Shown: positions 21,986 through 62,913 of the stretch, piece by piece
How positions within the stretch are numbered: the first letter of the stretch is position 1
Layout of the letters: every line of letters starts with the position of its first letter
From: Verrucomicrobiota bacterium
Lineage (GTDB): Bacteria; Verrucomicrobiota; Verrucomicrobiia; Limisphaerales; VHDF01
Direction: 5' to 3'
Assembly: GCA_016871495.1 (NCBI GenBank)
Contig: VHDF01000009.1
Span: 1-64,000, forward strand
DNA length: 64,000 bases
The notes under the pieces: generated by a model
The model's input: the letters and a program-made list of their open reading frames with translations, nothing else
What the model was told of the DNA's origin: nothing
The model's database searches: none
Program-made: the position numbers and the translations under genes

Positions 21986-22051
21986 GACGCGAGCCTCGAA
22001 GGCCGGGAGGAGATGTCAAGGCCGGCCTTTCATCGAAGGTGTGTCCCCGTG

Positions 22052-22176
22052 CATCCCGATGTTGTTGGTAGGGCGGGCCTGTCCGTGCCCGCCGCCCACT
22101 GGATGCAAAACATCATGCTCCGGCGGCGCGCCGGGACGGACGCGCCCTACCTGCATCACCGGCAACATCGGGATGC
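22052..22176 (+). repeat. Repeat family A, copy 1 (125-bp hairpin element)
   Basis: The ends are a perfect 14-bp inverted repeat, GCATCCCGATGTTG and CAACATCGGGATGC. An inner pair GGTAGGGCG / CGCCCTACC also folds. A nearly identical copy lies at 39982-40107. It contains no gene. Confidence 0.9.
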
Positions 22177-22213
22177 ACCGGGTGTGTCCCGGTGCATTTG
22201 CAAGGGGGCGGAG

Positions 22214-22359
22214 CGAGCCGTTCACGGCGCTTCCGCACGCGCCAACCTGCCGCGGCGATCTCCTCCCGTTCCATGGCCCGCCCTGGGTGGATGCCTTGGC
22301 CCTGACAGCATCCTTGCCTGTTGAACTTGCCTTGCCCCGTTGAAGACACGCCCTGAAGC
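22214..22359 (+). repeat. Repeat family D, copy 1 (about 146 bp)
   Basis: This stretch matches the reverse complement of 56813-56957, for example GCTTCAGGGCGTGTCTTCA, GGCGGGCCATGGAACGGG and GATCGCCGCGG in the same order. It includes a family C core at 22215-22230 with one mismatch. Weaker similarity continues to about 22410. It lies between the DUF1549 gene start and the MFS gene end; no gene is encoded. Confidence 0.8.
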
Positions 22360-22442
22360 GGCTTGAACGCCGCGCGCATCACTGATGATCTATGGATGCA
22401 CCGGGTGCGTCCAAAAGTTGAAAGGAGGACCCCGGCCTCCCT

Positions 22443-26038: not shown

Positions 26039-28210
26039 TCAATACGGCAAGGGGTGCTTGGCCGTGAGTTCATGAACACGCTGGCGCACCTTGCGGCTGG
26101 TGTCAACATTTTTGATGTCGAGCAACACTTCGCTGATCATGTCCGCAATGGCGGCCATTTCCGTTTCCCGCATGCCGCGCGTGGTGACAGCGGGCGTGCC
26201 GAGGCGGACGCCGCTGGCCTGAAAGGGAGAACGGGTTTCGAACGGAATGGTGTTTTTATTGACCGTGATGCCTGCCAGATCCAGCGCGGCCTGGCATTCC
26301 TTTCCGGTTAGATTGCGAGCTCCGACATCGACGAGCATGAGGTGATTGTCGGTGCCGCCGCTGACCAGTCGAAAACCATTGCGGGCCATGCCGTCGGCCA
26401 AGGCGCAGGCATTGGCGAGGATTTGCTTTTGGTAATCGAGGAACGAGGGTTGAAGCGCCTCGTGGAAGCAAACGGCTTTGGCTGCGATGACGTGCATGAG
26501 GGGGCCGCCCTGAATGCCCGGGAAGGCCTGAGAATCGATTTCCTTGGCATATTTCGCCTTGCAGAGGACCAGTCCGCCGCGCGGACCCCGCAACGTCTTG
26601 TGCGTGGTGGTGGTCACGAAATCCGCGTGCTCCACCGGACTGGGATGCAGGCCGACGGCGACGAGGCCTGCGATGTGGGCGATGTCGGCCAGCAGAAAAG
26701 CGCCGTTGTCCCGGGCGATTCGCCCCATGCGTTCGAAATCGATCACGCGAGGGTAGGCGCTGGCCCCCACGGTGATCATGCGGGGCTTGTGCTCGGCGGC
26801 CATGCGGGCCAGCAAATCGTAATCGATGCGCTCCCGCTCCCGATCCACTCCGTAGTGAACCACTTCGAAGAATCGACCCGAGAAATTGGCCTTGTTGCCG
26901 TGGGTCAAATGACCTCCGTGGCTGAGATCCATCGTCAGCAACTTCTCCCCCGGCTTGAGCACCGCGAAGTAAACCGCCATGTTGGCGGAGCTGCCCGAGT
27001 GGGGCTGAACGTTGGCGTGCTCGGCTTTAAAGAGCTGTTTGGCCCTGTCGATGGCGAGTTGTTCGGCTTGATCGACAAACTCGCAGCCGCCGTACCATCG
27101 TTTGCCGGGATACCCTTCGGCGTATTTGTTGGTCAGCACCGATCCCTGCGCCTCCATGACGGCAAGGCTGGTGAAATTCTCGCTGGCGATCAGCTCGATG
27201 TTCTCCTGTTGCCGTTTGCGCTCCTCGCGGATGACGCCGGCGATTTCCCGGTCGGCGGCGGCCAGGGAAAGGGCAACGCCAGGACCTGACTCAAGCTTGC
27301 CGACGCGGCGATCGTGGCGTCCGCCCTCCTCCCCGGTGGACAGAAAAGCGTCGACCATGCGGCAGGCTTCCTCTGGCGACACGGTGGAAGCCCCGAGACA
27401 CAGGACATTGGCATGGTTGTGCTGTCGGGCCAGGGCGGCCAGTTTTTCGGTCCAAGCCAGGGCGGCTCGGATCCCGGGGACCTTGTTGGCGGCGATGCTC
27501 ATGCCGATGCCGCTCGAACAAACCAGGATCCCGAAGGCGTGTTTTCCGGCGGCGACGGCTTCGCCGACGCGCCGGGCGAAATCAGGGTAATCGACGGCAT
27601 CCGCGGAAGTGGGGCCGAGGTCTTGGACCTCCACGCCACGGACGGCGAGGTGCGAGTGGAGTCGGGTTTTCAGGGCGAAGCCGGCGTGGTCAGCGGCCAG
27701 GGCAACGGACCCCGTCTGGCTCTGATGGCCTTGTGCGGATTGGGATTCCATCTTGGATTGTCGGATGAACTTGAGGATGCTGGAAAGGCTTTGTTCGATT
27801 TGGTCCCGGCACTCCGCATAGGTTCCGAAGGAACCACCGATCGGATCGGAAATATCCTTTTCGAATTCCTCCAGCGTTTCGTCGAAGTCGCGGAGCAGAA
27901 AGGTTTTCTCCGCCGCCTCGGGAAAGAGCGACACGATGGCGCGAAGATGTCCATGCGTCATGCCCAGGATCAGATGGGCTTGCTTGACCAGCTGGCCGGT
28001 AAGCATCCGGCTTCGGTGGCCGGTGATATCGATGCCCAGTTCGCGCAGCGCTTCCACGGCGTGCTGGCTGGGCCCGCAGCCGTCCATGGCGCTGACTCCC
28101 GCGGACAGGATTCGATAGTCCTCCTGGCCGCGCACCGCATGGCGGAAAAGCCCTTCCGCCATGGGACTGCGACAGATATTACCGGTGCAAACGAACAGGA
28201 TGGTTTTCAT
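26039..28210 (-). CDS. Three-enzyme fusion: LMW protein phosphatase - ribose-5-phosphate isomerase B - serine hydroxymethyltransferase
   Basis: One uninterrupted 723-aa frame carries three complete enzymes. Residues 1-155 are a low-molecular-weight protein phosphatase, with P-loop C8-TGNIC-R14-S and general-acid loop D122-P. Residues 168-300 are RpiB ([15 protein letters not shown], catalytic C231-[19 protein letters not shown]), which interconverts ribose-5-P and ribulose-5-P. Residues 316-723 are GlyA ([26 protein letters not shown] lysine K538 in [11 protein letters not shown]), which makes glycine and methylene-THF from serine. The linkers are short, about 12-16 residues. Start 28210 ([11 protein letters not shown]) is the native phosphatase start; frame upstream is repeat-derived. 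In Bacillus the same genes are neighbours (ywlE, rpiB, glyA). Confidence 0.9.
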
Positions 28211-28302
28211 CAACGGTCGAACAGTGGCCAAGAAGTTGGGCGCGGGTCGAGGAATCGTCAACGGCGAAATCCCCCCGAGCTGCGAGGGCCGTGCATCCTG
28301 AA

Positions 28303-28484
28303 GTTGTCGGTCGTGTGGCGCAGGCTGCTCAGCCTGCCGTATCGCCGACGGCCCGTCGGGTGAAGAACGAGGCCCTTCCATGCTCTCCACGCGCCGGGTT
28401 CCCTCCGTCGCCCCGCAGGCTGGGCAGGCTGCGCCACAGCAGACAGGGCTGTCGGCGTGACCACGCAACCCGGTCACCGACAAC
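28303..28484 (+). repeat. Repeat family B, copy 1
   Basis: The 182-bp element is bounded by GTTGTCGGT and ACCGACAAC (9-bp inverted repeat). An inner pair, GTGGCGCAGGCTGCTCAGCCTG versus the complement of the block ending near 28435, matches at about 20 of 22 positions. Similar copies lie at 57058-57248 and 60113-60308. It occupies the divergent gap between the fusion gene and the MFS gene. Confidence 0.88.
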
Positions 28485-28612
28485 CTCTGGCTGCGTGCGT
28501 TATGATGGGGTCTTCCCCCTCAGAAACAATTTTTGTGGGTATCGAGAGCGTCGTCGAGCTTGTGCGGCGCCTGGAGCGTCCCTTAATCTCCGCGCGTCTC
28601 CTATCGAATCCC

Positions 28613-29968
28613 ATGCAAGCTGAGGCATCGTCCGGCGGTGAGGGAACCCGGGAAGTCCGGTCCCTGCGCGACCTTTCCCCTGCCCAGTGGAAATCGGGCG
28701 CGGCGGCCTGGCTGGGCTGGTTGTTTGACGGCCTGGACATGCATCTTTACGGGCTCGTGGCGGCGCCTTTTGTGGCGCAGCTCCTGGACGTGGCGAGTCC
28801 CGCGGATGCGATGGTTCGGGAGAAAAGCTCGTGGATTCAGGCCGCGTTTCTGGTGGGTTGGGCGTTGGGGGGCGGGTTCTTCGGAAGGCTGGGGGATTTG
28901 ATCGGGAGAAGCCGGGCGCTGTGCCTTACGATTTTGACCTACGCCTTGTTCACCGGACTTTCCTTTTTTGCGCAGACTTGGTGGCAATTGTTGATCTTTC
29001 GATTCATCACCGCGTTGGGCATCGGAGGCGAATGGGCGGTGGGCTCATCGCTCCTCTCTGAAACCTGGCCTAAGCGATGGCGTCCGTGGATCGCGGCCGT
29101 GTTGCAAACCGGGGTCAACCTCGGGGTGTTGCTGGCGTGCGCCACCGTTTTTTTGAGTGCACGCTATGAGGGTGCCATCGGGCAGCTCTTTTCCTCGATT
29201 TTGCCGGATCGATGGACGCCGGAGCACTGGTATCCCCGGTTCGTTTTTCTGGTGGGTGTGCTGCCTGCCTTTCTGGTGTTGTGGATTCGGAGGCATGTGC
29301 CTGAGCCGGAAGAGTGGCACGCGGCGAGGAGGAACGCGTCACGGGCCGCGCCGCCGGGCATCATGGACCTTTTCCGAGGGGAGATTTTGCGGACGACGCT
29401 CCTGACGATCGTGGTGTGTGCCACTTCGCTGACCGCTTGGTGGGCCTTCATGTTCTGGCATTCGCAGCATTTGAGGAATCTGCCCGAGCTGGCTTCGTGG
29501 GCGAGAGAACGGCGGGAGGAACTCGTCAGCACGGCCTTTTTTGTGGTGATCTCGTCTTCGATTGCCGGGAATTTCTTCGCGTCCTGGCTGGCGCGGCGCT
29601 GGGGCTATCGACGGGCCATTGCCCTGACGTGTTTGGGATTTCTGATCACCATGTCAGCCACCTTTATCCAGGATCGGCCGGCCCTGTCGTTGGTATGGTT
29701 TTGGTTTCCGGCGGTCGGATTCTTTTCGGGCGTTTTTGGATTGTTCACGATGTATTTGCCGCCTTTGTTTCCGACCTTGTTGCGCACGACGGGGGCTGGA
29801 TTTTGTTATAACATCGGGCGGATTGTGTCCGCGTGCGGCGTGGTTTTTTCGGGAACGCTCTCGCGCGGAGGCGACTTCAAAACCACCCTGCTCTTCGCCA
29901 GCATGCTTTTCATTCCAGCGATGGTGGTGGCCGTCTGGCTGCCGGAGCCGGACGAGTTGAAGGCGTGA
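28613..29968 (+). CDS. MFS transporter, metabolite:H+ symporter-like
   Basis: The 451-aa protein has twelve predicted transmembrane helices and the MFS loop-2/3 motif FFGRLGDLIGRSRAL. Helix 4-5 (RFITALGIGGEWAVGSSLLSETWP) resembles the aromatic-acid / sugar-phosphate symporter branches. A second half-motif, ASWLARRWGYRRA, starts the second repeat. The start is uncertain: ATG 28613 gives a 40-residue hydrophilic N-terminus before helix 1, while ATG 28502 would add 37 residues next to repeat B. No neighbouring gene indicates the substrate. Confidence 0.8.
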   Translation: MQAEASSGGEGTREVRSLRDLSPAQWKSGAAAWLGWLFDGLDMHLYGLVAAPFVAQLLDVASPADAMVREKSSWIQAAFLVGWALGGGFFGRLGDLIGRSRALCLTILTYALFTGLSFFAQTWWQLLIFRFITALGIGGEWAVGSSLLSETWPKRWRPWIAAVLQTGVNLGVLLACATVFLSARYEGAIGQLFSSILPDRWTPEHWYPRFVFLVGVLPAFLVLWIRRHVPEPEEWHAARRNASRAAPPGIMDLFRGEILRTTLLTIVVCATSLTAWWAFMFWHSQHLRNLPELASWARERREELVSTAFFVVISSSIAGNFFASWLARRWGYRRAIALTCLGFLITMSATFIQDRPALSLVWFWFPAVGFFSGVFGLFTMYLPPLFPTLLRTTGAGFCYNIGRIVSACGVVFSGTLSRGGDFKTTLLFASMLFIPAMVVAVWLPEPDELKA

Positions 29969-39943: not shown

Positions 39944-39981
39944 GGTCCGGCAACCTGCGGATGCTCCCATCCTCGTGCCGT

Positions 39982-40107
39982 GTATCCCGATGTTGTTGGT
40001 AGGGCGGGCCTGTCCCAGCCCGCCGCCCACTGGATGCAAAACATCATGCTCCGGCGGCGCGCCGGGACGGACGCGCCCTACCTGCATCACCGGCAACATC
40101 GGGATGC
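39982..40107 (+). repeat. Repeat family A, copy 2 (126-bp hairpin element)
   Basis: This is a near-identical copy of 22052-22176 in the same orientation, with one mismatch in the left terminal repeat. It ends about 90 bp before the TTG start of the next gene and so lies in its 5' region. Confidence 0.9.
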
Positions 40108-40185
40108 ACCGGTCCTCGTGAAATGCGGAAAATAAACATTGATTTTCCGGAGGATGGAGGGTTAAGCAACGGACGAACCCTTAAC

Positions 40186-56667: not shown

Positions 56668-56812
56668 GGACTCCTTGTAACAACCGCCGCGGGGTTTTGT
56701 CGATGGCGGGGACGACGTTTCGCGCCCGGACCCGTTCGTGGCCCGCAGGGTCCCTTGCATCCACAGGTGGTCGGTGATGCGCACGGCCGCGCCGGGGCGC
56801 GGCGTTCACGTT

Positions 56813-56957
56813 GCTTCAGGGCGTGTCTTCACATGGGCAGGGCAGGTTCAACGGCCGAGGCTGGTGCCAGAGCGAAGGCATCCACCCGGGGCGGGCCATG
56901 GAACGGGAGGAGATCGCCGCGGCCGATGGGCGCGAGCGGAGGCGCCGTGAACGGCGC
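56813..56957 (-). repeat. Repeat family D, copy 2
   Basis: This is the reverse-complement counterpart of 22214-22359, with the same internal order of blocks. It ends in a perfect family C core (56942-56957). Similarity continues weakly back to about 56750, into the DNA just before kdsA. Confidence 0.8.
56942..56957 (+). repeat. Repeat family C core, copy 3
   Basis: GCGCCGTGAACGGCGC, followed by GCCCCGACAACTTGC. The flank is the reverse complement of that around the core at 60360. Confidence 0.8.
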
Positions 56958-57057
56958 GCCCCGACAACTTGCGGGTGCACCGGGCAGAGTTCCGTGCCTC
57001 CCGAAGCTGTTCTTGGCTCTCCTCGCCCGCGGATGAATGACTTTGGAAACCGTCTCA

Positions 57058-57248
57058 GTTGTCTGCCATGTGGCGCAGGCTGCCCAGCCTGCCGTATCGC
57101 CGACGGCCCCACGGCCCGGCGGGTGAAGAACGAGGCCCTTCCATGTTCTCCACGCGCTTGGTTTCCTTCGTCGCCCCGCAGGCTGGGCAGCCTGCGATAC
57201 AGCCGACAGGGCTGTCTGCGTTACCACGACAACCCGGTCACCGCCAAC
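57058..57248 (+). repeat. Repeat family B, copy 2
   Basis: This 191-bp copy of the element at 28303-28484 begins GTTGTCTG and ends ACCGCCAAC. The inner CAGGCTG...CAGCCTG blocks and the GAGGCCCTTCCATG segment are shared. It ends 79 bp before the serS start. Confidence 0.85.
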
Positions 57249-57327
57249 CTTTAGATGCACCGCGCAAGGCGTGCCTCCTGGGAAGCTGCTTGCCCTTCCG
57301 TTCGGCGCTTACCTAGACTCGTTCTCC

Positions 57328-60090: not shown

Positions 60091-60112
60091 CGCGCGGCGG
60101 GTGCATCTCGAA

Positions 60113-60308
60113 GTTGTCTGCAGCGTGGCGCCGGCTGCTCAGCCTGCCGTATCGCCGACGGCCCGTCGGCCCGGCGGGTGAAGGATAAAGCCCTTCCATG
60201 CTCTCCAAGCGCCTGGTTCCCTTCGTCGCCCCGCAGGCTGGGCAGCCTGCGTCACAGCAGACAGGGCAGGGCTGTCGGCGTGACCACGACAACCCGATCA
60301 CCGACAAC
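60113..60308 (+). repeat. Repeat family B, copy 3
   Basis: This 196-bp copy begins GTTGTCTG and ends CCGACAAC. It shares inner GC-rich arms and GCCCTTCCATGCTCTCC with the other copies. It lies between glgA and polX. Confidence 0.88.
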
Positions 60309-60359
60309 TTCAGCCTGCATGGCCGCACCGCTCTCGGTGCAGCCGCACGTTGTCGGGGC

Positions 60360-60375
60360 GCGCCGTTCACGGCGC
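60360..60375 (-). repeat. Repeat family C core, copy 4
   Basis: GCGCCGTTCACGGCGC, preceded by GTTGTCGGG and followed by TTCCGCCCCG. It has about 90 bp of extended similarity to the copy at 62502. Confidence 0.8.
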
Positions 60376-60667
60376 TTCCGCCCCGCGACGCCGCCCGCGT
60401 CGAATTCCTCTCACCGCGTTGGCTGCCGAAGGTGCGTTTGATTGCTTTGGAATGACGCCAACACGCGATGCCTTTGACGTTTTCTCCGTGACCTCAGCGT
60501 CCTCTGCGCGAGGAAAAGCAAAACGCCACACGCCAAGCTCGCAACGGGCGCAACCCAACCAGCGCGCTCACCTACCGGCAAAGCTGAAGCGCCGTGAACT
60601 TGCGGATGCGCCGGTTACGGATTGCTCCGCGCTTGGCACGGGGAACGGGTCGCACCATATTCGGCGC

Positions 60668-62422: not shown

Positions 62423-62913
62423 GCGAAGATGGCCGGAGCGCGGGAGGAGCGGGCACGCGGCGCTTTCTGGGTGGGACGGTGCATCTGCAAGTGGTCGGGG
62501 CGCGCCATTCATGGCGCTTCCGCCCCGGCAACCCCCGCTCGCGCCGAATTCCTACCCCACGTTGACCGCCAAAGTTACGTTCGATCGCTCTCGCGTCAAA
62601 CCATCCCCGTCAACCGCGCCAGGCGCGCCGGCAGAGCCACCTTGATCCGGCCTAAGCGGCGCGCCACGGCGATGCCGCGCGCCTCACGGACGACCTGTCG
62701 ATGCACTGTGGGTGGAAGCGGGCATCCGTTCGAGGTTCTGTTGGGCGGCGCGGTGGAGGATCATTCTCCTCACCAATGGCCCGATCCTTCGAGGAGCGTG
62801 ATTGAAGAGGAGTAAGGGTCAACGGCAGACGCGGGCAAATTCGGGAATGATCAGGCCAAGGAACGGGCGGCGGCATCCGCCGGAATCCGTCATGACTTCT
62901 GCGGCATTCAACC
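62423..62913. other. Intergenic region after polX
   Basis: About 490 bp carries a family C repeat with extended similarity (about 62490-62600). Beyond it nothing recognisable is seen until the short membrane peptide ORF at 62914. Confidence 0.5.
62502..62517 (-). repeat. Repeat family C core, copy 5, with compensatory change
   Basis: GCGCCATTCATGGCGC: compared with 60360-60375, both partners of one stem pair changed (G-C to A-T), so the hairpin is kept. Flanks GGTCGGG and TTCCGCCCCGG match the other copy. Confidence 0.8.

Follow-up and report, generated by a model that had tools for sequence, protein, structure and literature searches.

Family B copies and other elements of the window

The 64,000-nucleotide stretch of DNA analyzed here (the window) contains three related copies of an inverted-repeat element, family B, all in the plus orientation. 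Copy 1 (28289–28498; 210 bp, with an 8-bp internal deletion) has as neighbors a fusion gene on the minus strand (26042–28210) and an MFS transporter gene. Copy 2 (56992–57262) represents a 271-bp subtype whose left part differs; its neighbors are the genes for seryl-tRNA synthetase and DAHP synthase, with a second element between copy 2 and the DAHP synthase gene. Copy 3 (60099–60322; 224 bp) lies beside a starch synthase gene. These assignments come from Pfam and confirm the neighbors named by the first-pass annotation (a glyA fusion, serS, and glgA). The protein encoded next to copy 1 is a three-domain fusion (LMWPc-RpiB-SHMT) of a low-molecular-weight phosphatase, an RpiB-type isomerase, and a serine hydroxymethyltransferase. 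Relatives of copy 2 were found elsewhere in the genome, at L093:8139–8409 (271 bp) and L120:552–824 (273 bp).

Comparison of the window with itself returned the three copies where the first-pass annotation had placed them, with identities to the reference copy of 69–100% (D1) and 67–100% (D4). The boundaries needed revision. Ends placed by a position weight matrix (PWM) lie 14 bp (in one case 66 bp) farther out, and similarity extends outward in the aligned genome copies; copy 1 was delimited by its scores of 34.5 and 19.8 together with the alignment. The shared ends described earlier, GTTGTCGGT/ACCGACAAC, are real but form the inner part of a longer terminal inverted repeat (TIR) of ~25 bp, CGGTGCATCCnnAnGTTGTCGGTGA, which bounds the copies and is common to other families of the genome. 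The annotation had also attributed false N-terminal extensions of neighboring genes to the elements. This applies on both sides of copy 1, where the open reading frame at 26039–28483 (likely true start 28210) and the one at 28457–29968 start within the element, but not to serS, whose longest frame starts at 57271, just outside copy 2. The long inner arms are genuine: the copy reported at 60113 folds at −102.3 kcal/mol, compared with −83.98 (SD 4.11) for 200 shuffles (z = −4.46). An Rfam search of the window gave no match to described structured RNAs at the gathering threshold.

Other elements of the same kind occur in the window. A 134-bp family A MITE (22047–22180, plus strand) is preceded by the 9-mer GGTGTGTCC (22038–22046, read directly) and followed by the same 9-mer at 22181–22189 (9 of 9). 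A C/D-type MITE (22190–22403) is stacked 9 bp after it and is followed by GGTGCGTCC at 22404–22412 (8 of 9); the left TIR of this second element is weak (PWM 3.8, under the counting cut-off), and the right TIR scores 15.6. Another 134-bp family A MITE (39978–40111, plus strand) has the flanks ATCCTCGTG/GTCCTCGTG (8 of 9); a right TIR (PWM 14.8), belonging to a further, decayed element, has its end 9 bp upstream, at 39968. A 230-bp C-type MITE (56753–56982), with flanks CGCAGGGTC/GGCAGAGTT (6 of 9), ends 9 bp before family B copy 2. The 279-bp D-like element at 60335–60613 lies 12 bp after copy 3; its right end is weak (PWM 10.2) and its flanks match at 1 of 9 positions. The last, a 232-bp D-type MITE (62477–62708), is flanked by TGGGTGGGA/TGGGTGGAA (8 of 9).

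Length families, target duplications and stacking

The reported count of three family B copies is an effect of the window. A 1.23-Mb sample of the genome yielded 58 merged hits and fragments, and the core 20-mer (up to two mismatches) has 130 matches across the 5.06-Mb genome and none in a reversed control. The consensus end pattern (up to three mismatches) gave 380 sites genome-wide and none in the control, and the TIR PWM at score 12 gave 236 sites compared with 5 in reversed sequence. The sample comprised 61 stretches, the window among them. Forty of these (0.8 Mb, L066–L105) were taken in contig order, though picked with knowledge of the hit list. Together they contain 140 end sites and 55 paired elements; end sites are lacking from 11 of the 40. 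Paired elements alone account for 1.3% of the bases in these 40 stretches and for ~1.5% of the whole sample, where densities may lean high because some of the remaining stretches were picked for hits or Y1 genes.

Adjacent inward-facing ends with a PWM score of at least 8 formed 98 pairs, of which 96 were kept (60–500 bp, with enough flank). Their lengths are 130–138 bp in 39 (another family with this TIR, exactly 134 bp in every copy), 216–221 bp in 26, 225–235 bp in 6, 350–360 bp in 4, and other values in 21. The main classes are too short for a transposase gene. The 9-bp flanks of the 96 elements have an identity of 0.765, compared with 0.276 (SD 0.017) in shuffled pairs (z = 28.6). Flank lengths of 3–7 and 11–15 bp remained below z = 2, and those of 8 and 10 bp reached z values of 3–4. 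All nine positions match in 40 elements, eight in 20, six or seven in 11, and five or fewer in 25. The elements therefore have the features of MITEs: they are short and without coding capacity, they end in TIRs, and they are flanked by a target duplication of constant length. The window copies of family B carry decayed duplications, and for them the 9-bp rule rests on their relatives: the flanks of copy 1 (CTGCGAGGG/GTTATGATG) match at 2 of 9 positions, with no recognizable duplication, those of copy 2 at 4, and those of copy 3 (ACGCGCGGC/CCGCACCGC) at 6.

Perfect duplications were found in 31 of 39 family A elements and in 2 of 26 B219 elements (8 of 9 in a further 10). Median pairwise identity is ~97% in family A and ~89% in B219; the low percentiles come from wrongly oriented copies and one divergent member. 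With its higher identity and cleaner duplications, family A looks younger than B219. A 355-bp variant consists of family B with a 136-bp insert and was found at L076:16851–17208, L086:12842–13196, L089:7930–8284, and L121:3247–3601. Three of these four sites have a 9/9 duplication, which indicates that the composite itself moved as a unit.

The elements also stack. Measuring from each right end to the left end that follows gave 74 gaps. Exactly 9 bp separate the ends in 13 of them; the others are 8, 10, 12, and 16 bp (two each), 42 bp (one), or at least 93 bp. In 7 of 11 chains of paired elements (L066, L070, L075, L080, L083, L108, and L117, with a one-base shift in L070 and L075), the 9-mer separating the elements is found again, identical or nearly so, on both outer sides. 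In L093 and in both PWM-paired chains of the window the 9-mers are decayed or unclear; a further window chain, which falls under the PWM cut-off, has the order GGTGTGTCC – family A – GGTGTGTCC – C/D element – GGTGCGTCC. On the simplest reading, stacks arise when elements insert time after time into the duplication that adjoins a resident end. New copies thus appear to prefer such sites, reusing the same 9-mer, and the 9-bp stacking represents a testable target preference. A pair of adjacent MITEs at L112:1667–2124 has identical outer 9-mers (ATTTTGGGG) and a different inner one, and this composite possibly moved as one.

Full-size transposons with near-identical ends

Of the 320 genomes searched from the order, 38 have the end pattern (up to two mismatches), the window's own included. 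The latter has 294 sites; the highest number elsewhere is 130. In other genomes of the order, the TIR bounds transposons of 1519–2278 bp that carry a gene for an ISKra4-like transposase, often together with DruA. Elements of ~2.2 kb lie between such ends in G074:C12 and G088:C212. Two proteins are encoded by the G074 element, DruA (PF14236, E = 4e-23) and a transposase whose best-matching family is ISKra4 (NF033572; E = 4.1e-45, residues 6–407); its 154.6 bits fall under the curated 205-bit NCBIfam cut-off, and we therefore name it ISKra4-like only. D276 and E372, candidates for the second and third residues of a DDE triad, are invariant among 15 aligned relatives in columns with at least 12 letters.

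Six elements are bounded on both sides (L188, L204, L208, L210, L211, and L214). Only the G088:C212 element (L204:5092–7282) has a perfect 9-bp duplication, GTCCGCAGC. The flanks match at 2 of 9 positions in L188, 1 in L208, and 3 in each of L210, L211, and L214; decay, recombination, or assembly are possible reasons for the missing duplication in these five.

Twelve distinct transposase loci reach at least 48% identity (one of them a 38-residue fragment). In 11 the stop codon is followed by the TIR, at a distance of 30–31 bp in 10 loci and 109 bp in one; the twelfth runs off its contig. No TIR was found past the stop of 19 more distant transposases, one of which has a TIR-like site inside the frame. 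Across genomes, a close transposase (at least 50% identity, whole or partial) predicts the TIR, which is present in 12 of 15 genomes with such a gene and in 26 of 305 without (Fisher p = 4.9e-10); it occurs in 5 of 48 genomes that have only more distant transposases (p = 1). At the search sensitivity used, 26 of the 38 TIR-bearing genomes are thus without a close transposase.

In blastn comparisons (E ≤ 1e-3), 9 of 12 tested MITEs match five full-size elements, with similarity limited to 21–34 bases at the termini; the window's B, C, and D copies gave no match to the full-size elements. Since matches are confined to the termini, the interiors of the MITEs did not arise by deletion from the full-size elements examined. 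Some MITEs of different genomes are alike over longer stretches, as in family B and an element of G051 (72% over 71 columns). Exact matches to the end pattern among named genome records fall in 41 stretches, 38 of them titled Verrucomicrobia or Verrucomicrobiales, in a search from which the window's own records may be missing. The others are from Akkermansia muciniphila and an Oscillospiraceae (single unpaired ends) and from one other bacterium. Of 27 paired elements in these records, several of which are places already met in the full-size search, 16 match at 8 or 9 of 9 flank positions.

Gene context, alternative explanations and DruA

The first-pass annotation had offered two explanations, mobile elements or transcript-end structures, and had set random placement and lack of preserved pairing against its proposal. 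Placement is not random: only 2 of the 96 elements lie within called genes (5 are at stretch edges), despite ~85% of the sample being called coding by a home-made gene caller (908 genes). This scarcity fits the removal of gene-breaking insertions as well as it fits a function. Biases in gene orientation are modest. Of 89 placed elements, 47 are in tandem, 35 in divergent, and 7 in convergent gaps, which hold 57.8, 28.6, and 13.7% of intergenic bases, respectively (p = 0.045), and 69 of 96 elements have a 5′ end as their closest gene end, against 57.6% of 6000 points drawn at random from intergenic DNA (p = 0.005).

Selection on RNA structure, with the elements acting as terminators or as mRNA-stabilizing hairpins of the BIME type, would account for the strong fold (z = −4.46) and for nearly all copies being intergenic. 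However, pairing is not preserved beyond chance in the covariation test proposed by the annotation: in 28 aligned copies the hairpin pairs in 96.1% of cells, compared with 96.0% in shuffled alignments, without any compensatory excess; two pairs changed on both sides (1.0, SD 0.9, in shuffles), the covariation score is 0.044 against 0.043, and the RNAalifold covariation term is unfavorable (+1.17). Convergent gaps are not enriched and 5′ sides are favored, which together with the lack of covariation leaves a terminator role unsupported, and fixed ends with 9-bp duplications require insertion. We consider this explanation very unlikely. Palindromic, intergenic, high-copy repeats also recall REP/REPIN elements moved by RAYT, a Y1 tyrosine transposase, and PF01797 hits occur at five places on four contigs of this genome. 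Of these four Y1 contigs, however, only C81 has a strong TIR close by, in a B fragment at a distance of ~170 bp from a Y1 frame that contains a stop; none of the Y1 genes of the genome is flanked by TIR pairs, and the TIR tracks the ISKra4-like transposase instead. To our knowledge, 9-bp target duplications, as seen among the 96 paired elements, and ~25-bp TIRs are not REPIN features, and this origin has next to no probability.

A third alternative concerns the source of the transposase. The window's own assembly gave no close match to the ISKra4-like transposase at E ≤ 1e-20 (5 of 11 candidates were scored) and one 43-position transposase fragment at E = 4.5e-4; the short contigs C162–C201 and C117 were scanned for TIRs, and the own-genome loci examined lacked an ISKra4-like transposase. 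An autonomous partner was thus not encountered in this fragmented assembly of 201 contigs, from which a multi-copy element could be missing. MITEs are able to outlive their partners, so a partner in the same genome is not strictly defining. The genome does encode a 734-aa DruA-IS4 transposase fusion (G000:C15:2401–4605; L237:91–2295, minus strand) within a C/D-type MITE. If DruA recognized the ends, this fusion, flanked by MITE-type TIRs at 2122 and 4716, might mobilize the MITEs. Yet the fusion element inside the MITE has a separate inverted repeat (19 of 22), with flanks GACCGCGCCG/GGCCGCGCCT (8 of 10). Other DruA-IS4 elements have other TIRs and perfect duplications of 8 bp (L317 and L321) or 9 bp (L311), and the MITE TIR was found at none of 18 scanned DruA-IS4 loci (some places counted twice). 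A DruA-IS4 partner is therefore largely refuted and hardly credible.

The fixed lengths, common TIRs, 9-bp duplications, and full-size relatives with a transposase elsewhere bear out the mobile-element explanation. Family B is very probably a MITE moved in trans by a TIR-acting DDE transposase with 9-bp target duplication. It would be a gene-less DNA transposon of ~219 bp with a ~25-bp TIR, on which the transposase would act in trans, duplicating 9 bp of target. We infer that an ISKra4-like transposase moved the copies of this genome, though none is in the assembly, and that selection removed insertions within genes; the hairpin would be a by-product of the inner inverted repeats rather than a selected RNA.

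In the passage of one account that defines them, MITEs have 70–300 bp, TIRs of 15–30 bp, and no coding capacity (PMC3733652). The present elements resemble the bacterial MITEs RUP, NEMIS, and Nezha in size, TIRs, lack of coding, target duplication, copy number, and ends common with a larger element. They differ in that a single TIR serves several fixed-length families of one genome whose interiors are mostly different, this TIR is met again across an order, stacked elements are spaced at 9 bp, and one variant (355 bp) is longer than 300 bp. ISKra4 proper makes a 9-bp duplication, a likeness that accompanies the best transposase match; the score under the family cut-off and the DruA gene often carried set these elements apart. 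With REPIN/BIME sequences they have an intergenic location, palindromic structure, and high copy number in common, but not the long TIRs and 9-bp duplications. Family B is thus a MITE family whose ends are common with ISKra4-like transposons often carrying DruA, and its stacking habit is unusual. This explains a large class of intergenic repeats here and in related uncultured Verrucomicrobia, and it supplies a TIR for annotating these elements and their transposases.

DruA is known from the Druantia defense system. Its domain (PF14236, E ≤ 1e-10) was found in 89 of the 320 genomes. Some of these domains adjoin transposases or are fused with them, and at least two kinds of transposase (ISKra4-like and IS4) are represented; such repeated occurrence in transposons bears on the origin of a Druantia component. 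Five of the 12 close-transposase loci have a complete or almost complete DruA and two a partial one; in the other five, some of which run off their contigs, it was not seen. DruA is thus common, not universal. In L331 and L334, where the ISKra4-like transposase accompanying DruA is more distant, the TIRs are different and the 9-bp duplications perfect. A role for DruA as recognizer of the TIR across transposase classes was discarded, since the DruA-IS4 loci lack the MITE TIR and have TIRs of their own. It is conceivable, if rather doubtful, that the transposase, perhaps with DruA as accessory, targets resident ends one duplication away and so stacks elements in intergenic safe sites, DruA being a widespread transposon cofactor in the order. 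Neither protein of the G074 element gave a PADLOC match at E ≤ 0.1, and its stand-alone DruA had no NCBIfam match; exact peptide patterns of this DruA hit two stretches among viral contigs, none confirmed. We found no open-access paper that mentions DruA together with a transposase, with or without ISKra4, or with an insertion sequence.

Other genomes of the order have DruA-IS4 fusions similar to that of C15, and the TIRs of these are different. In the window's genome, a DruA fragment (114–350) at G000:C117:1–720 (L162) lies between reading frames resembling IS66 accessory and transposase genes. The DruA part of the L237 protein (residues 187–264) has a weak Pfam match, below cut-off, to the Mom family (E = 0.017). 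If a transposon carried a Mom-like enzyme, it would be reminiscent of phage Mu. DUF4338 is termed a GNAT-like domain in one passage of a published study (PMC10853773).
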